Source: a virus
Reading direction: 5' to 3' (one strand)
Length of the DNA: 35,111 bases
IMG/VR virus record: IMGVR_UViG_3300034682_000265
Coordinates: 1-35,111 of that record
Shown here one piece after another: positions 378-24,294 of the stretch (position 1 is the stretch's first letter; each line of letters starts with the position of its first letter). The notes beneath the pieces were generated by a model. The model was not told where the DNA came from, did no database searches, and worked only from the letters and a program-made list of their open reading frames with translations. Position numbers and translations under genes: made by a program.

Positions 378-1364
378 TCATGCGACAGGTAGCGGGTTTT
401 CCAGCGGGTTGAAGCGCACCGCATCGCTCAGATAGTCCGGTGCAAAGTGGGCATAGGTCATCGTTTGCTGGATGTTGTGATGGCCCAGAATTTTTTGCAG
501 CGCAAGGATGTTGCCCCCGGACATCATGAAGTGTGATGCAAACGTGTGCCGGAACACATGCACCGCCTGCCCTGCTGGCAGATCCGGCGCCACGGTCTTG
601 AGAACGTCACGCACCAGCAAATAGTCGAGGTCACGGAACAGCGGACCCCGGTTCACCCCGTTTGTTATCTCCTGACACAGCTCGGCCGAGATCGGCACGG
701 TGCGGTTCTTGCCATTCTTTGTGTTGATGTAGGTCACCCGGCTGGCCAGCACATCTTCACGGCGCAGATTGGCTGCTTCACTCCAACGCGCTCCCGTGGC
801 CAGACAGAGTTTGACCACTTTCAGGTTATCCCCAGATAGCGCAGCTAGAACGTCGCCGATCTCTTCCTGGGTCAGGTAGCCCATCGACCGCTCAACCAGT
901 TTGACCTTCTTCATCTCTTTGAGCGGGTGCTCGTGGTGGTAGTGACCGAGATCGGTGAGCACTGAGAAGACCCCGCCCAGCATCTCCTGCTCGCGGTTCA
1001 CAGTCTTGGGTTGTCGGCCGGCATGCAGTCGCTGCGCCCGATACTCGGAGAACAGAGCCCGGGTCACTTGTCTCGCCAACGGGTGGCGCAACGCGGCATC
1101 GATATTGTGGAGTTTCTTTCGTACCTCCCCCCCTGCTTTCAGGGTCTGGCCATGGTAGCGCCACCAGAGTTCGATCAGCTCGGATAGCGGCCGGTTATCT
1201 GCCGGGCGATCCACCCACTCTTTATTATGCTCGGTGGCGATCACCCAACGCTCGAACTGCTGGGCTTCGGACTTGGTCTTGAAGCGCTTGCGGATCCGCT
1301 TGCCTTCCCTCCCCTGCGGGCGGATATCGACCAGGTACCCTTCAGGCGTGGACTTGATACTCAT
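378..1364 (-). CDS. int: Tyrosine recombinase integrase
   Basis: Site-specific recombinase that integrates and, with Cox, excises the phage. The 328-residue protein has an N-terminal arm-binding/core-binding part and a C-terminal catalytic domain. Visible catalytic residues are Arg193 (in TGARWSEAANL), a probable beta-hairpin Lys near 219, His269-x-x-Arg272 (HVFRHT), His295 (LGHH) and the Tyr304 nucleophile (MTYAHF). The ATG start at 1364 has a strong AAGGAGG (about 1368-1374) and overlaps, as ATGA, the stop of a 27-codon leader ORF. A LexA box lies about 95 bp upstream, so transcription is probably SOS-controlled. It sits between the putative attP and the KAP gene, as in HP1/K139-type phages. 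Confidence 0.95.
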   Translation of the reverse strand: MSIKSTPEGYLVDIRPQGREGKRIRKRFKTKSEAQQFERWVIATEHNKEWVDRPADNRPLSELIELWWRYHGQTLKAGGEVRKKLHNIDAALRHPLARQVTRALFSEYRAQRLHAGRQPKTVNREQEMLGGVFSVLTDLGHYHHEHPLKEMKKVKLVERSMGYLTQEEIGDVLAALSGDNLKVVKLCLATGARWSEAANLRREDVLASRVTYINTKNGKNRTVPISAELCQEITNGVNRGPLFRDLDYLLVRDVLKTVAPDLPAGQAVHVFRHTFASHFMMSGGNILALQKILGHHNIQQTMTYAHFAPDYLSDAVRFNPLENPLPVA

Positions 1365-1444
1365 CGCCCCTCCTTATATAGAAAGGCGCTCACCCACCCA
1401 CACATCGGTACAGCTCCCAACTTCTGTACTGTCACTGTTATCAT
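1361..1444 (-). CDS. Short leader ORF overlapping the int start
   Basis: This 27-codon ORF starts with ATG at 1444, right behind an AAGGAGG sequence, and its TGA overlaps the int ATG (ATGA). The spacing from AAGGAGG to the ATG is only one base, which is short; a GTG at codon 4 has better spacing. The predicted peptide begins MITVTVQKLGAV and has no recognisable domain. It lies between the LexA box (1460-1475) and int, so any transcript from that promoter must carry it. The likely role is translational coupling to int rather than a functional peptide. Coding status is inferred from the ribosome site and the exact overlap. Confidence 0.4.
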   Translation of the reverse strand: MITVTVQKLGAVPMCGWVSAFLYKEGR

Positions 1445-1459
1445 ACCTCCTTCAAAATA

Positions 1460-1475
1460 CTGTTGTTTTATACAG
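1460..1475 (-). promoter_or_regulatory. LexA (SOS) box upstream of int
   Basis: CTGTTGTTTTATACAG is a perfect CTGT-N8-ACAG with an AT-rich centre; flanking bases (TA...TG) also resemble the enterobacterial SOS box. Read on the int strand it contains TATAAA, a good -10 hexamer, so LexA binding would occlude the promoter. It is 16 bp before the leader ATG and about 95 bp before int. Confidence 0.75.
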
Positions 1476-1828
1476 TGTTTTTCGGAAAATATCAGTGTTT
1501 GACTGAGTCTGCCATATACATAGGAGAGCCGTAATTTGGGCCACTTGAAAGATCGACGCCTTACTCACTTGCGGATGATGGACGTATTGATGGTGGTGGG
1601 TGGGCCTGACAGGGTGACAGTTTGCTGAGTTCTGCAGGATCGTATCGGCAACGGGCGTCATCAATGACCCTGCCCTCTAAGCAGGGGTTTGCCCTTGTCG
1701 GTAAAGTGCTTACGGGGTCCTAATGGCCCTAGGATATGCTTCAATCCGCCACACCTTGGCATTGACGTCATCGAATTTGCGAAAAGTTCTTTTTAACTTT
1801 CTTACTGTATTATCAAATTGGTTATCCT
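1476..1828. other. Intergenic region between the KAP gene and the int promoter
   Basis: About 350 bp with no credible gene. A small hairpin, CCCTGC (1668-1673) with GCAGGG (1681-1686) and a 7-base loop followed by GTTT, may be a weak terminator. The rest would hold the upstream part of the LexA-controlled int promoter. I see nothing else. Confidence 0.4.
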
Positions 1829-3355
1829 CTAATCCAGTGAAGCCGCAAGCTCTACTAAATCCCGATAAACTCTTTTATCTATCCGACGCATCTGTTCATT
1901 TAGATATTCAAATTTTAGCAGTGGTATATGAGTCTCCTCATTACGAAGCGACATGCCATCTTCGTTAAACATCTGTCGAATCTCTGCTTTAAATTCAGAT
2001 AGATTTATTCCATGCGTTGTGATCCTTGCTCCACTCTCACTTTCGAATACATCACTGGTATATAAAAAAATGGATTCAAAATATTTCTCTAAAGGACATG
2101 TCAAAATTTCAGACTCACTATCAACCATAGCACTAAATTTTAATTTAGAATGAAAGTAGCCTTTCCCCTTAAATAAGTCAATGTAATTCCCAACACTTAC
2201 CGAACCAACTGACATATTATAAATTTCAGTATCTCTAACCCTGAGGCAGTGAAGTATAGTGAGATAAATCAAATCTATTTTCGCACCTGGCTTCAAATTC
2301 AAAAGTGAAGCGACGATTCTATTCACGATTTGAATGGCCAACCTTGGTGATAGATTAAAAGACTCTAAAACATTAATTACATTTTCTATGTGCTTGTGAT
2401 GTGCAGGCCAAAGTATAATTTGGTGTTTTTCATAACAATCTCTAAACACGCTTGTGTTACAGTGCGACTCAATCAACGTTTTAAGAGGAGCTTCACGTAA
2501 ACTAAAACGAGAATCGAAAAATCTGGTTAAATATGTTTGCGCATCAAAACCATTGCCATAAACCACTTTAATTGCATGTTGAAGCTGTTCTGTATCTGTT
2601 GCGATAACAAAAAACACTCCAGGAATATCAAAGATATGCTTGACTGTTTCAAGCATTTCTACCGCATAGCTAGGGCGACAACGGTCCAGCTCATCAATAA
2701 TGACCACTGTGGGTTTTCCATCAAGAGAGCCTTGCCCTGATACCGCACCAATCCACCCAGTGATATCATTCTTCAGTGCCTTAATCGATGCACTCTTTTT
2801 TTCATGAGATGAAATCAAAAACTTAGCCATATTGGCTGCCGCATCCCCAACATCTTTGCTGATATCTGCGGAAACTGGTTCCAGCAATGATGTAATTTCG
2901 TTAATATCTTTCCCTAGATATTTTTTGGCTGCCGCACCAACCAATAATGGTCCCATAGCCTTTAACAGTGACCAACCGTTTTCCATCCCCTTTGATAATG
3001 CTGAGGTTTCTGGTTTGTCAGTAAGACCTCGCAACGTGGCAATGATTGCTGATATTACAGTCATAAATGGATCATCAGAGTGATCGCTCTTCCATGCATC
3101 TATATAAATGACTGGATGATGTTTCTCAAGGTCATACTTTAAACGCTTTAAGAAATAGGTCTTACCTGTGCCCCAACCGGAATTTAGGTTTAACACATAG
3201 GGTTTATCTTTATTCTGACCTAACAAGTACCCTGCCAAAAACCTAGCGTATTTTTCCCTACCTAGCTGGTCTTCACGAAAATGCTCATCATCGATATCTA
3301 CAGGACTGGACCAATCAATTTGCATACCGCTAGTTACATCGAGTTGTTTAGCCAT
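1829..3355 (-). CDS. KAP family P-loop NTPase (putative exclusion/defence cargo)
   Basis: A 508-residue KAP NTPase. The Walker A motif GWGTGKT lies at about residues 60-66 and Walker B VVIIDELDR at about 217-225, followed by CRPSY, the typical KAP signature. A weakly hydrophobic segment (about 130-147) sits between them, where KAP proteins often carry membrane insertions. The family includes F-plasmid PifA, which excludes phage T7, and several defence-associated NTPases. I chose ATG 3355, which has AAGGA about 8 bases upstream, over an upstream GTG at 3385 that lacks one. Base composition is clearly more AT-rich than the late genes, suggesting acquired cargo. It lies 74 bp downstream of the BRCT gene on the same strand, so the two are probably co-transcribed. 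The exclusion role is inference from family and location. Confidence 0.85.
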   Translation of the reverse strand: MAKQLDVTSGMQIDWSSPVDIDDEHFREDQLGREKYARFLAGYLLGQNKDKPYVLNLNSGWGTGKTYFLKRLKYDLEKHHPVIYIDAWKSDHSDDPFMTVISAIIATLRGLTDKPETSALSKGMENGWSLLKAMGPLLVGAAAKKYLGKDINEITSLLEPVSADISKDVGDAAANMAKFLISSHEKKSASIKALKNDITGWIGAVSGQGSLDGKPTVVIIDELDRCRPSYAVEMLETVKHIFDIPGVFFVIATDTEQLQHAIKVVYGNGFDAQTYLTRFFDSRFSLREAPLKTLIESHCNTSVFRDCYEKHQIILWPAHHKHIENVINVLESFNLSPRLAIQIVNRIVASLLNLKPGAKIDLIYLTILHCLRVRDTEIYNMSVGSVSVGNYIDLFKGKGYFHSKLKFSAMVDSESEILTCPLEKYFESIFLYTSDVFESESGARITTHGINLSEFKAEIRQMFNEDGMSLRNEETHIPLLKFEYLNEQMRRIDKRVYRDLVELAASLD

Positions 3356-3429
3356 TATAGTACATCCTTGACCTAGAATATTCACATATCACCAAGTGAA
3401 CTTATCAAACATGGATTCGTGTTAAAGCC

Positions 3430-4314
3430 TTATATCGGCTCTGAAGCAACCCTTACCCAGTCTTCTTCATTGATGATCTGAATAACCTGCCCTTTTTCCT
3501 TCGCTTTAATTACGGCTTCAATCTTGCGGCCATGGCTGGTGAACATCCAATCGCGGCTGGCCAGGCTGCCAACAATCAGCACATCGAGATGCGTAGTAAC
3601 CCCCTTCACAGGGGAGGCACCAAGCAGCTTGGCTTGCTGCTCTAAATTGTGACGGGTATCGGAGAGAAACTTTCCTGTGAAGCAGACTGTCTTGCCTCGA
3701 AGACTCATCACATTGCCATCGGCAAAGAACTCGGTCGCCATCCCAGCCGCAAGACCTGATTCTGTGAAGCGCTGCCCGGAAATCTGTTTCACCAGTTCCA
3801 GCAGATCTTCGCGCTCGTCTTCGGTGATTTCGCCATCTGCCAAAATATCGTTGAGACGGTTGAACAGCAGGCTACCCGGCCATGAGGCCAACAGGTCACG
3901 ATGCTTGAGCAGCAGCGCTCTAAGAGCATGCACCTCTTGTTCCACGATGTTGCTGTCGGCACTGATGCCTTGCAGGAAGCCGAGCAACATATTGACCAAC
4001 GCATCCATGTTGTCGTGCTCAATCTCGTTGTACTGCAGCACATCATTGAGCAGGTTCAACAGGTCTTCTTTCTCATCGGCTGTGATGATCCCATCTTTGA
4101 GAACGTCGTGGATGAGATCTTGAATATCGAGGAAATCACCATCTTTTTTGAACTCGGAATCCGATTTCAACCAAGTGGCCATAAAGAGAACTTCTGTGTC
4201 GTTAAGACGCTGATCGGCAGTGAGGCCGCTCAAGATACCGTGAAGGCTGATCAGTGCTTTTTGCTTATTGCGCTTGTAACCAAATGACATTGGCACATCA
4301 TTGAACTCTGACAT
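3430..4314 (-). CDS. TerB-like/BRCT-domain protein
   Basis: A 294-residue protein whose C-terminal region (about 203-290) is a BRCT domain of the DNA-ligase type: LRGKTVCFTGKF, then an LGASPVKGVTTHLDVLIVG-like core and a final W near 286. The N-terminal 180 residues are acidic and helical, with two similar segments, DGIITADEKEDLL (about 74-86) and DGEITEDEREDLL (about 160-172), reminiscent of TerB-like folds. The start ATG at 4314 has AGGGAG upstream. It precedes the KAP NTPase gene in the interval between cI and int, so the pair forms a two-gene unit likely expressed in the lysogen. Its function is unknown; BRCT domains bind DNA ends or phosphoproteins, so a sensor role is possible but unproven. 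Confidence 0.8.
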   Translation of the reverse strand: MSEFNDVPMSFGYKRNKQKALISLHGILSGLTADQRLNDTEVLFMATWLKSDSEFKKDGDFLDIQDLIHDVLKDGIITADEKEDLLNLLNDVLQYNEIEHDNMDALVNMLLGFLQGISADSNIVEQEVHALRALLLKHRDLLASWPGSLLFNRLNDILADGEITEDEREDLLELVKQISGQRFTESGLAAGMATEFFADGNVMSLRGKTVCFTGKFLSDTRHNLEQQAKLLGASPVKGVTTHLDVLIVGSLASRDWMFTSHGRKIEAVIKAKEKGQVIQIINEEDWVRVASEPI

Positions 4315-4401: not shown

Positions 4402-4429
4402 AAAAACAGGGCGCATTAGCGCCCTGTTT
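4402..4429 (-). terminator. Intrinsic terminator of the repressor gene
   Basis: AAACAGGGCGC (4404-4414) and GCGCCCTGTTT (4419-4429) form a perfect 11-bp stem with a 4-base loop (ATTA). Read leftward, the stem ends in TTTTTATA. The repressor's TAA stop (4416-4418) lies inside the loop. Confidence 0.85.
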
Positions 4430-5114
4430 GTCTTTTTCTGTATGACCTGTGTTCTACCATCACGCCGATGATCTGGATGTGTTGTCGGTCGGAATGCATG
4501 GTGGGGTAATCGTCATTGAGAGGGACCAGCTCAAACACCTCTTGTCCGCTCTCGTCGATGCCGCGGGGCCGGTACTTCTTGAAGGTGGCCTCTTCGCTGC
4601 CGTTCTTGGCCACGACGAAATCCCCTGGTTGGGGCGCTTCGTCGGGATCAACGATGATGAGGTCGCCTTCCTTAAAGAAGGGTTCCATCGACTGCCCACG
4701 CAACCAGAGGCCGAAACCACAAGGGCCAACATCCACCCCCGCCGTCACATACTCAACGTTGCCATCAAAAGCGGTGGCCTGTTCACACATCTCGTGCCAG
4801 TGGCCGGCCTGAACATAGCTCAGCACAGGCACGCGCGTACCTTGCGGGATCACGGCAGGTTCGACGTTGTGATATCCAGGCATCACTTCTGGTGCAGGCT
4901 GTGCCCTCGCCTCCCCGTCTCCAGTCAAAAGCCAGTCAACAGTGACCCCCAGCGCTGCCGCTAAATCATTGAGATAGCGACCCTTTGGCTGGTTAAGTCC
5001 CGACTCCCACTTGCTAACAGACGCATGGGAAATACCAACACGTCGGGCAAGCTCAGCCTTACTCATTTTCTGTGCCTGCCGGCTGGCAGTTATGCGGTCA
5101 TTGATCGTTTCCAT
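4416..5114 (-). CDS. CI-like repressor with LexA-type S24 autoprotease
   Basis: Maintains lysogeny by repressing the early promoter. The 232-residue protein has an N-terminal helix-turn-helix (about 17-38, recognition segment GISHASVSKW) and a C-terminal S24 peptidase. The predicted self-cleavage site is Ala103-Gly104 (YVQAGHW), with catalytic Ser142 (RGQSMEP) and Lys179 (EATFKKY). Known members of this class cleave themselves on contact with activated RecA. This differs from P2's own C repressor, which lacks a protease domain, and resembles repressors of inducible phages. The gene is divergent from the Cro-like gene across four operator-like repeats, and its stop codon lies in the loop of its own terminator. 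Confidence 0.93.
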   Translation of the reverse strand: METINDRITASRQAQKMSKAELARRVGISHASVSKWESGLNQPKGRYLNDLAAALGVTVDWLLTGDGEARAQPAPEVMPGYHNVEPAVIPQGTRVPVLSYVQAGHWHEMCEQATAFDGNVEYVTAGVDVGPCGFGLWLRGQSMEPFFKEGDLIIVDPDEAPQPGDFVVAKNGSEEATFKKYRPRGIDESGQEVFELVPLNDDYPTMHSDRQHIQIIGVMVEHRSYRKRQTGR

Positions 5115-5117
5115 GAA

Positions 5118-5216
5118 ACCTAAGTTACCACTCCAAAATCACACTTAAGTATCAAACTCTCTTGACTCCCGTTTATTACATAAGTTACGCTTCGGTCATT
5201 GATGATCCTTAAGTTA
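5118..5216. promoter_or_regulatory. Divergent early control region with four operator-like repeats
   Basis: Four related 10-mers lie between the repressor and Cro-like genes: ACCTAAGTTA (5118-5127), ACTTAAGTAT (5143-5152), ACATAAGTTA (5178-5187) and CCTTAAGTTA (5207-5216). The shared core is TAAGT, and the second copy contains the perfect palindrome ACTTAAGT. A rightward -35 candidate, TTGACT (5163-5168), has a poor -10 (TACGCT) 17 bases on, overlapping copy three; a TATATT lies at 5215-5220. Repressor and Cro-like protein share the recognition segment GISHA(S/A)VSKW, so both probably bind these sites. Confidence 0.65.
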
Positions 5217-5234
5217 TATTTTGTGAGGTCGAGA

Positions 5235-11191: not shown

Positions 11192-12004
11192 GTGGCGAAT
11201 TTTTTAAGGGATATAAGAATAACTAATCTAACTGTCACGGAGCAGCTCTTGGCATCTATTAACGATTTTTTGGAAGAACGTTGTCTTTCAGTAAATAAAT
11301 TAATTGATCAAAGTGAATTACCATCTGAACAAAAAACAGATCAGCGACTAGCTTTATCTTATATAATAAGATTTGACAATAGAGGTTACAAACTATTTGA
11401 CCCTGATGAAGCGATGAGATATTACCAACAAGCCTCAGTGGTTGAAAGGCTTTTGATCACATCAAGCTCATTTCTAAGTGAACGTACTAGTAGACAATAT
11501 GGAACTTACTTTGAAGTTAGACTGGATGCTGGAGATCCCAATGCTTGTTATATCCAAGTGTCCGCCGATGATAGAGACTCTGTTGACGCAGTTTATAATG
11601 GATTAACAGAGATATTGTTAAAGCACAAAAACAAGAACGGTTGGGTTAGGAATACTTGGACGCAACTATTAGTTCAAGTGATTGGTGTCGCAGTAGGTTT
11701 CGTTCTTAGTCTACTTTCTGCTATTGAAATATCTCCCTATCTCAAAGTTGAAAATGCTTTCTTTATTACTTTCATTTTCTCCTTCCTAATATTTTCAAAT
11801 ACTTGGGGATATTTAAATCAACAGATTTTATGGCTACTAAATTATGCATTTCCAAATGTACGTTTTGTTCGACAAAAGAGAAACACTACTCACTGGTTGA
11901 TTCAGGCAGTTGTCGGAGGAGTTCTCGTGGCAGCTTTTCTATTCGCATTTAATCAAATCATGAATTGGGTAGGAAATATAATGGGTGCTTTTATCTCATT
12001 ATAG
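11192..12004 (+). CDS. AT-rich membrane protein, cargo gene 1
   Basis: A 270-residue protein: about 155 soluble N-terminal residues, then three likely membrane segments (near residues 161-181, 190-208 and 236-258). No family recognised. It starts with GTG at 11192 after AAGGAG (11176-11181). The DNA is distinctly AT-rich against the GC-rich genes either side, and uses codons unlike theirs, which suggests recent acquisition. It sits between the replication operon and the late activator, close to where P2 carries tin and old, both of which block other phages. A defence or exclusion role is inferred only from place, composition and membrane location. Confidence 0.8.
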   Translation: MANFLRDIRITNLTVTEQLLASINDFLEERCLSVNKLIDQSELPSEQKTDQRLALSYIIRFDNRGYKLFDPDEAMRYYQQASVVERLLITSSSFLSERTSRQYGTYFEVRLDAGDPNACYIQVSADDRDSVDAVYNGLTEILLKHKNKNGWVRNTWTQLLVQVIGVAVGFVLSLLSAIEISPYLKVENAFFITFIFSFLIFSNTWGYLNQQILWLLNYAFPNVRFVRQKRNTTHWLIQAVVGGVLVAAFLFAFNQIMNWVGNIMGAFISL

Positions 12005-12027
12005 ATAACACATATAAAATGGTAACG

Positions 12028-12053
12028 AGGCGCAAAAAAAGTGCCGCCTTTTA
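12028..12053 (+). terminator. Terminator-like hairpin between the two cargo genes
   Basis: AGGCG (12028-12032) pairs with CGCCT (12045-12049), followed by TTTTA. It lies 24 bp after the first cargo gene. It may only partly terminate, setting the ratio of the two products. Confidence 0.5.
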
Positions 12054-12083
12054 TTAGGCATAATTATATATCGGAGATGTAGT

Positions 12084-12860
12084 TTGAATTTAGGAAAACA
12101 AGATGGGATTAACGCTCAGATGATTACGAGACCCATACAGCTTTTGGCGGCATGGCTTGTAGGGCTAATTTTCGTAAACGGTACTTTTTTGATAACCGCT
12201 CAAGCTTTCAATTCAATAGAATGGCTCGCTGCAACCTTGGTAATAGCATCAGTTATCAATGTCCCTATTTTTTTATTCTCATTGTTTTTATTGCAAACAA
12301 AATTCAGGCCAGAAATACAGGAGGACCATTATTACAGCCAATATATCAAGGACAAACTTGGTCGTGATATGACTAGTAAATCAATAAGTTTGGCAAAAAA
12401 TAACATTACAGAAACCGTAGTAGATAGCGTTGAAGTAGATAACGTTATAACTGACTCTTTGTGGTCTCAAGTAAAAATACTTTTCAACCCTCACTTAAAT
12501 ATTTCTGATAAAGTTCGTGCTGAACTTGATAAGAATGGCATACCTATATCAGAAGAATTTGGAAGCAAGAGTTGGATTCCTGAATTTGTAGTTTCGATTG
12601 GTCGATATCTGACCTATGAACAAATATCAGTGATTCTAGATAGTATTAAAAGCATACCTGATATTCACGTGTCATTTTCAAATGATGATGATGAGATATA
12701 TGAATGGGATCGCACAGTATTGATAGGCTCATATTTCTATGATGTTGATAGAAAGTCGTATCCTATATCAAAGGCATTGGAATTACTGGAAACATCTGGT
12801 GGTAATGTAAAGGCATTTTATCAAAAGCTATTTGATCGCCAGCGTGATGAAGATACATAA
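12084..12860 (+). CDS. AT-rich membrane protein, cargo gene 2
   Basis: A 258-residue protein with two likely membrane segments near the N-terminus (about residues 19-39 and 48-70), then a soluble cytoplasmic-type domain of about 185 residues. No recognised domain. I use the TTG at 12084, which has GGAG seven bases upstream; an in-frame ATG at 12120 lacks a ribosome site and would cut closer to the first membrane segment. Composition is AT-rich like gene 1, and both are oriented alike with an 80-bp gap that contains a hairpin. Probably one acquired unit; function unknown. Confidence 0.75.
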   Translation: MNLGKQDGINAQMITRPIQLLAAWLVGLIFVNGTFLITAQAFNSIEWLAATLVIASVINVPIFLFSLFLLQTKFRPEIQEDHYYSQYIKDKLGRDMTSKSISLAKNNITETVVDSVEVDNVITDSLWSQVKILFNPHLNISDKVRAELDKNGIPISEEFGSKSWIPEFVVSIGRYLTYEQISVILDSIKSIPDIHVSFSNDDDEIYEWDRTVLIGSYFYDVDRKSYPISKALELLETSGGNVKAFYQKLFDRQRDEDT

Positions 12861-12920: not shown

Positions 12921-12946
12921 ACTAGGGACGCTATTGCGCCCCTAGT
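12921..12946. terminator. Hairpin terminating ogr and cargo transcripts
   Basis: ACTAGGG (12921-12927) pairs with CCCTAGT (12940-12946), extended inside by CGC with GCG around a TATT loop. It lies between convergent genes. The stop codon of the Ogr-like gene (12931-12933) is within it. T-tracts on either side are weak. Confidence 0.6.
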
Positions 12947-13182
12947 CCTTTCAATACCAATTGCCGCCCCTCCGGCGTGAGCGCCTCCATCAAGCTGATC
13001 ACTAGTTGGTTCGTGGTCTTGGCCGAGGGGCTTAGGGTGTGGGCGAACGACAAGGTGGCCACCCAGCTGTGGCCACACTCTGCATCGGTGCACTGGCAGT
13101 AGAGATCCGAGACATCATCGCTCAGTCGGTTGGTCTTGGTAATGCGGCCCCGTTGGCCACACACTTTGCAATAAACCCGCAT
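12931..13182 (-). CDS. ogr: Ogr/Delta-type zinc-finger late transcription activator
   Basis: Activates late promoters by contacting RNA polymerase alpha in P2 and its relatives. The 83-residue protein has the exact family zinc motif C-X2-C-X22-C-X4-C: Cys5, Cys8, Cys31 and Cys36. I use ATG 13182, preceded by AAGGGGG; an in-frame ATG at 13203 has no ribosome site. Upstream lies a perfect LexA box (13233-13248), so expression is probably induced by the SOS response. In P2 ogr lies at the far end of the tail operon beside attP; here it is next to portal gene Q, on the same strand. Its targets are probably the divergent P and O promoters. Confidence 0.9.
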   Translation of the reverse strand: MRVYCKVCGQRGRITKTNRLSDDVSDLYCQCTDAECGHSWVATLSFAHTLSPSAKTTNQLVISLMEALTPEGRQLVLKGLGAQ

Positions 13183-13232
13183 TACGCCCCCTTTTCTATC
13201 CAAATCAACAGCCTATCTTGCCACAGAAAACA

Positions 13233-13248
13233 CTGTTTGTTTATACAG
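13233..13248 (-). promoter_or_regulatory. LexA (SOS) box upstream of the Ogr-like gene
   Basis: CTGTTTGTTTATACAG is a perfect CTGT-N8-ACAG with AT-rich centre. On the minus strand it includes TATAAA, usable as a -10. It covers the TAA stop of portal gene Q (13241-13243) and ends about 50 bp before the Ogr start, so Q and ogr can be uncoupled: Q read-through plus a separate SOS promoter. Confidence 0.75.
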
Positions 13249-24109: not shown

Positions 24110-24294
24110 CCGCGCGCGCCGAGGCCATCGAGCGCAATCCCCTGGAGCAGGTGCTGGCACTACGGCGCTACTACCTGCCCCATGAAGAGGACGACCTCGA
24201 CAGCCTGGCTCGCGCCATCTGGTTAGACAAACAGCACCGAGAGTCCAACGCCACCGCCGTGGCCGAGGGCATTGCCAAAGCACTGAACGGGTAA
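24106..24294 (+). CDS. E': E' extension made by -1 frameshift from gene E
   Basis: An open frame of 62 codons with no good start of its own, entered by -1 slippage at A AAA AAC (24100-24106) just before the E stop. The fusion would be 149 residues. The extension begins LTARAEAIERNPLEQVLALR and ends IAKALNG; the LALRRYYLPHEEDDLDSLA core resembles E' extensions of P2-like phages. P2 E/E' uses T TTT TTG in the same place. Tape measure T begins seven bases after it. Confidence 0.82.
   Translation: MTARAEAIERNPLEQVLALRRYYLPHEEDDLDSLARAIWLDKQHRESNATAVAEGIAKALNG

Follow-up and report, generated by a model that had tools for sequence, protein, structure and literature searches.

The locus analyzed in this work raises the question whether a P2-family phage may keep its integrase gene directly under the host LexA repressor, and what part is played by the short open reading frame (ORF) lying between the predicted LexA box and the integrase start. 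The window, i.e., the whole stretch of DNA analyzed, is a virus record of 35,111 bases representing a P2-family phage of the phiO18P/K139 type, whose host is probably an Aeromonas.

Genome organization and classification of the phage

The following lysogeny-related features were distinguished:

378-1364, minus strand: int, P2-family tyrosine integrase of 328 aa (domain and homology matches)
4416-5114, minus strand: cI, lambda-like repressor with an S24 self-cleavage domain (VQAG cleavage motif aligned with lambda CI)
5113-5223, no strand assigned: likely CI/Cro operators, TAAGTTA/CTTAAG repeats that are not LexA-like

The integrase contains Int_N and Phage_integrase domains and is 48.9% identical to P2 Int; with the P2-type virion gene set present in the window genome and phiO18P/K139-type Ogr neighbors, it was classified as an integrase of the P2 family (Peduoviridae). 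Genes encoding Cro, a Cox-like protein and CII are located on the strand opposite to int and cI; the replication protein gene, and then the Ogr/Delta, portal and terminase genes, follow. Alignment of the window CI with lambda CI revealed the VQAG (Ala-Gly) motif as well as the regions of the catalytic Ser and Lys, and the destruction of this repressor during the SOS response is therefore expected.

Two intervals carry additional genes. Between cI and int (1829-4314) there are a KAP P-loop NTPase gene and a gene with a weak BRCT match, which differ among relatives and are likely accessory or defence cargo, and the interval between rep and ogr (11192-12860) holds two genes without a Pfam match, probably also accessory cargo. 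No attL/attR end repeats of at least 10 nt were found between positions 1-378 and the final 1.1 kb of the window.

A LexA box over the integrase promoter

Upstream of int, the following elements were recognized:

1460-1475, minus strand: LexA box CTGTATAAAACAACAG (CTGTTGTTTTATACAG on the plus strand) over the int -10 (sequence, matrix score, relatives)
1467-1495, minus strand: proposed int promoter, -35 CTGATA (1495-1490), 17-bp spacer, -10 TATAAA (1472-1467) (sequence; columns conserved in alignment A1)
1446-1452, minus strand: ribosome-binding site (RBS) of the leader, AAGGAGG (sequence and alignment A1)
1494-1502, minus strand: element TCAAACACT (TTAAACACT in relatives) adjoining the -35 (AAACA columns invariant in A1)

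An earlier note on this DNA had reported a perfect CTGT-N8-ACAG box with an embedded TATAAA on the int strand, 16 bp before the leader. The exact box can indeed be read from the sequence at 1460-1475, as can every other element named in that note, and the distance between it and the leader ATG (1444-1442) is 15 bp. The int and ogr promoters are predictions, assigned by eye and by conservation; a consensus promoter scan gave no match at the int or the ogr site, because it demands T at the last position of the -10 and 9/12 matches. The int box contains the proposed -10, while the box of ogr, described below, covers the -35 region (by inspection). The TTAAACACT-like element is conserved in both integrase lineages discussed in this work (also in L349 of the second one). 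It might be read as a counterpart of the P2 Cox box, which is similar; a single copy of the element occurs near int in the window.

For scoring, a LexA matrix was derived from the sequences of 20 LexA sites of E. coli given in PMC3009722. The int box reaches 16.5 bits and the ogr box 21.2 bits, E. coli LexA sites themselves scoring 12.5-23.8 bits with this E. coli matrix, and both boxes thus fit the gammaproteobacterial type of LexA operator. Judging from 500 first-order Markov shuffles of the window, 0.012 matches of at least 16.46 bits are expected per window. The perfect CTGT-N8-ACAG pattern alone is weak evidence, as two copies are present in the window, whereas base frequencies predict about 0.5 per 35 kb. 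The same operator type is present in the presumed host genus: in four Aeromonas genomes, the lexA promoter has two boxes in tandem, CTGTATATACTGCCAG being combined with either CTGTATAAAAAGACAG or CTGTATAAAAAAACAG, and the box of an Aeromonas dinI-like gene, CTGTATAAAATTACAG, is an identical 16-mer to the int box of L029.

Conservation of the box and its linkage to the immunity module

The comparison set comprised 27 viral loci encoding a relative of the window Int, 15 with the box-leader module and 12 without it. A perfect CTGT-N8-ACAG was found 119-130 nt before int in 14 of the 15 module-bearing relatives, and the remaining one (L005) has a single mismatch in the box arms. The earlier note's proposal would have failed had the box been absent from all close relatives; it is kept in every module-bearing one. 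In alignment A1 (16 sequences), the box arms are invariant or nearly so, with a mean column identity of 75%. Among the box cores of the relatives are those of two experimentally supported SOS sites of E. coli, polB CTGTATAAAACCACAG and yebG CTGTATAAAATCACAG. In the 12 box-less loci, Int is 72-95% identical, the upstream DNA is unrelated and no box is present.

All 15 module-bearing relatives encode, along with Cro, a CI that is related to the S24 CI of the window along the entire protein (67-99.6% identity), whereas an S24 CI accompanies only one (L024) of the 12 box-less int loci; in the two box-less loci whose repressors were examined (L014 and L017), a short HTH protein without S24 takes its place. 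The association is strong (Fisher p = 9e-7), with the reservation that the test ignores kinship and the relatives are not independent. It follows that the box goes with the immunity module and not with the int coding sequence. At the same time, phiO18P and L024 have an S24 CI and no int box, therefore an S24 CI is not sufficient for the presence of the box.

A pattern search for the full box-plus-leader motif among genomes of 37 Aeromonas species found only a single copy, in A. piscicola, which indicates that the module is phage-borne and patchy. The box plus RBS was detected in at least 119 stretches in a scan of viral contigs.

The leader ORF and its probable coupling to int

Two features were defined between the box and int:

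1361-1444, minus strand: leader ORF, 27 codons from ATG 1444 or 24 from GTG 1435 (frame open in 16/16 A1 sequences)
1365-1388, minus strand: RNA hairpin CGCCUUUCU/GGAGGGGCG sequestering the int Shine-Dalgarno sequence (SD) AAGGAGG 1375-1369 (-13.2 kcal/mol, z -2.9)

As the earlier note had described, the 27-codon leader is preceded by AAGGAGG and its TGA (1363-1361) overlaps the int ATG (1364-1362) as ATGA. This overlap is tight in most A1 sequences, and in L011 the leader continues into int. The one-base gap between AAGGAGG and ATG, regarded as odd in that note, does exist and is odd, yet it is peculiar to the window, as an insertion moved the ATG to one base from GGAGG; in relatives the leader starts 3-4 nt from GGAGG with ATG or, in single cases, TTG or GTG. 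A GTG two codons downstream, conserved in most sequences and located in the window at 1435-1433 (9-10 nt from the SD), may be the start used instead of ATG 1444. Both candidate starts in the window have a suboptimal SD spacing.

The leader frame has no stops in any of the 16 sequences; of the two remaining frames, counted in a set of 12 sequences, one is interrupted by 32 stops and the other by 12. All leader indels are multiples of three (window -9, L010 +12, L018 +3). The hairpin pairs 1388-1380 with 1373-1365 (9 bp). Similar hairpins were predicted in most module-bearing relatives (z from -1.3 to -2.7), those of L005, L023 and L025 being weak, and none was found at the corresponding place in box-less relatives. 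Support from covariation is slight, because the paired bases belong to the leader coding sequence as well and include the SD.

A stop/start overlap combined with an occluded downstream SD is the usual anatomy of translational coupling, and both are present here. Coupling of int translation to the leader, as put forward in the earlier note, is thus likely, judging from the always-open frame, the indels in multiples of three and the hairpin over the int SD.

A second lineage of integrases and a likely origin for the leader

The Aeromonas prophages L349 and L350 encode an integrase only 43% identical (aa) to the window Int, whose gene is preceded by CTGTATATAATSACAG and GGAGG, starts with its own ATG and has no leader. 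Their CI proteins are of the same type as the window CI (79-86% identity; 68-86% for the prophages of this lineage taken together). The same arrangement was observed in the three closest viral relatives of this second integrase (L358-L360), L358 having one mismatch in the arms. Among more distant P2-like integrases, those of L361, L401 and L411 have strong LexA-like boxes 41-52 nt upstream; no upstream box was present in most of the 80 int relatives compared in this survey. The direct control of int by LexA suggested in the earlier note is therefore backed by comparison, namely by conservation and by recurrence of the box on a second, distant integrase lineage.

The boxes in the P2-like prophages L401 (4952-4967, 20.2 bits) and L411 (4949-4964, 22.4 bits) are located 49-52 nt before int, and the repressors of both were judged by inspection to be 186-like and not of the S24 type. 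SOS control of int would thus not be confined to phages with an S24 CI.

The region from the box through the RBS, ATG and first four codons of the second int is homologous to the stretch from the box to the leader start in the window clade (CTGTATATAATCACAGTGGTTTGATGGAGGGATTATGGCAGTAAGA vs CTGTATAAAACCACAGTGTTTTGATGGAGGGTGATGACAGTGAGA; in the L350-L022 comparison, the local score is 57 and the highest shuffle score 26), i.e., the promoters of the two lineages share common ancestry. Since in the second lineage the homologous box, RBS and start stand directly on int, the leader resembles a remnant 5' end left by an integrase gene that was displaced, although the direction of change is our reading of the comparison. 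In the simplest history, the window clade would have kept the promoter, RBS and first codons, the int body would have been exchanged by recombination, and the stub would survive as the leader. The leader would then exemplify an exchange of integrases in which the upstream promoter, RBS and start codon are retained.

A second LexA box upstream of the late activator gene

A second perfect box, scoring higher than that of int and overlooked in the earlier note, was identified in the window:

13233-13248, minus strand: LexA box CTGTATAAACAAACAG, located before ogr and overlapping the stop codon of the portal gene (perfect, 21.2 bits)
12931-13203, minus strand: ogr, Ogr/Delta-like zinc-finger activator of late genes (PF04606, phrog_603)

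The true start of ogr is probably ATG 13182, and the box lies about 50 bp before it. CTG-N10-CAG is present in all 80 closest ogr loci, none of which deviates from CTGT-N8-ACAG by more than one base, and 50 of the 54 K139 Ogr-type loci have a site of at least 14 bits, mostly 63-66 nt before the start codon. The ogr box was found in phiO18P, A051, P05B, K139, PV94 (one mismatch), ValB1MD-2, L9-1, SMHB1 (one mismatch), yong1, ZF14, Pseudoalteromonas ACA2 and Pasteurella F108, and was absent from ESSI-2, ESSI2_ev015, SI7, Yersinia vB_YenM_324, the Pseudomonas phages phi3 and UFJF_PfPro, and Burkholderia Menos. It is also present in phages with a box-less int and non-S24 repressors, e.g., L014 (contig L090) and L009 (contig L087). 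The ogr box is both stronger and more widely conserved than the int box, occurring in P2-like phages of Aeromonas and Vibrio as well as in some of Pasteurella and Pseudoalteromonas. The available parts of two papers that discuss Ogr and its odd position (PMC10612066, PMC8537503) mention no LexA site, and a full-text literature search, with many subscription papers outside its scope, revealed no precedent for a LexA box on ogr. This site is the more surprising part of the finding.

Two further LexA-like matches were recorded. In K139 (L115:13532-13547), a strong box CTGTATATTAATACAG of 22.4 bits is located at the promoter annotated for orf12, which encodes an 81-aa protein without a Pfam match; since the K139 CI lacks an S24 domain, the SOS trigger of that phage could be orf12. 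In the window, a third matrix match CTGGTTAGACAAACAG (24219-24234, 17.4 bits) lies just before the tape-measure gene. It was set aside as a LexA operator, being probably a chance match, and its identical presence in phiO18P is uninformative, because the surrounding segment is 98% identical over 208 bp.

Comparison with known LexA-controlled systems

Integron integrase genes (intI) are LexA targets (PMC3323433, PMC3108266) and, as in the window, a tyrosine recombinase gene stands there directly behind a LexA box, being switched by SOS in the case of intI. Unlike intI, the window gene encodes a phage excision/integration enzyme and is accompanied by a leader, and the phage additionally has a CI that can be cleaved and a late activator gene with a LexA box. 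The promoter of an XerD-type phage integrase from a human gut metagenome was bound in vitro by B. subtilis LexA in EMSA (PMC3998124); that system differs in the LexA protein and the phage group, and the available part of the report describes no leader, ogr or immunity linkage. Given this in vitro precedent, LexA control of a phage int is not wholly new. For a P2-family int with a LexA promoter, or its modular exchange, no example was found in the literature (many subscription papers being outside the search scope).

Within P2-family phages, LexA controls tum of coliphage 186 and of the P2-like DuoHS (PMC7708051, PMC12055606). There, host LexA directly triggers induction, as proposed for the window phage, although it does so through an antirepressor, whereas the window phage has a self-cleaving CI and predicted LexA boxes on int and ogr. 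Host LexA also represses phage genes in GIL01 (PMC4551915) and controls rstA/rstR of CTXphi (as cited in the available part of PMC3323433); in these cases replication or lysogeny promoters are concerned, in contrast to the int and late activator of the window. With K139 and phiO18P the window shares the phage group, the gene order with ogr between portal and rep, and the ogr LexA box. In both, int is located at the end of the cI-side cluster without a LexA-matrix match in front of it, and the K139 CI has a non-S24 Phage_CI_C domain, unlike the window CI.

The proposed SOS circuit and alternative explanations

The explanation that accounts best for the whole, with a probability of roughly 0.8, combines a LexA-repressed int, cleavage of CI, a coupled relic leader and ogr behind a second box. 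Host LexA very likely sits directly on the int and ogr promoters. In the lysogen, LexA bound over the -10 would keep int off and would also hold ogr off, with CI holding off the early operon. Upon DNA damage, activated RecA would cause removal of LexA and cleavage of the S24 CI at the same time, so that Int for excision would be made when the early lytic genes come on. Ribosomes translating the leader would open the hairpin over the int SD, yielding Int by translational coupling; Int and Cox would excise the prophage, replication would start and Ogr would turn on the late promoters. SOS induction of int and ogr is in this sense a prediction.

LexA control might be real and serve mainly to silence int in the lysogen, preventing stray excision or re-integration, while excision at induction is driven mostly by Cox and the loss of CI and, during infection, int expression from the incoming DNA precedes the binding of LexA to it. 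This is possible, if clearly less probable than the circuit above. The int gene is located outside the early operon, with its own promoter and strand, and since the box covers the -10, leakage should be low; silencing alone, however, does not explain why the box is linked to CI of the RecA-cleavable type and not to CI in general.

Another alternative, which we regard as unlikely, is that the leader encodes a functional small peptide, e.g., an SOS-induced membrane peptide or a recombination factor. Its frame is open in all 16 sequences and pN/pS of 0.62 points to a weak purifying trend, but pairwise differences are spread almost equally over the three codon positions (314/307/357), amino acids are weakly conserved, the C-terminal conservation coincides with the int SD and the second int lineage does without a leader. 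The strong conservation expected of a TisB-like SOS toxin is thus missing, with no codon-position bias and no counterpart in the sister lineage. The reading of the leader as a conserved peptide was rejected on the grounds of this weak constraint; a peptide function is not likely, and what selection seems to maintain is not a peptide but translation that continues as far as the int start.

It is improbable that the int box is an operator for the phage's own CI or Cro. Its travelling with the S24 CI module would fit such a role, but in the CI/Cro control region (5113-5223) there are TAAGTTA/CTTAAG repeats without any LexA-matrix match, the same type of box stands on ogr in phages with unrelated repressors, and the box matches host lexA and dinI operators. 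A chance or hitch-hiking match without regulatory role, conceivable as every 65 kb or so should contain one perfect CTGTN8ACAG, is least credible of all in view of the matrix score, the conservation, the recurrence on a second int lineage and the host operator match.

The circuit of LexA-controlled int and ogr may be extended to a broader proposal, to which we would give even odds: Ogr would be a direct LexA target in P2-like phages of Aeromonas, Vibrio, Pasteurella and Pseudoalteromonas, single-stranded DNA from rolling-circle replication would activate RecA and thereby ogr during infection and, in phages with an S24 CI, int-mediated excision would be LexA-gated as well. If so, host LexA would act as a second phage repressor gating late transcription and coupling the late genes to replication. 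P2-type phages are usually sorted into non-inducible ones (P2), those inducible through an antirepressor (186) and those induced by CI cleavage; here, a single damage signal would act at three points, namely on induction, on excision and on late expression. As the ogr box extends across phages of several host families, the tie between replication and late transcription in P2-like phages, a long-standing question, would become directly testable.
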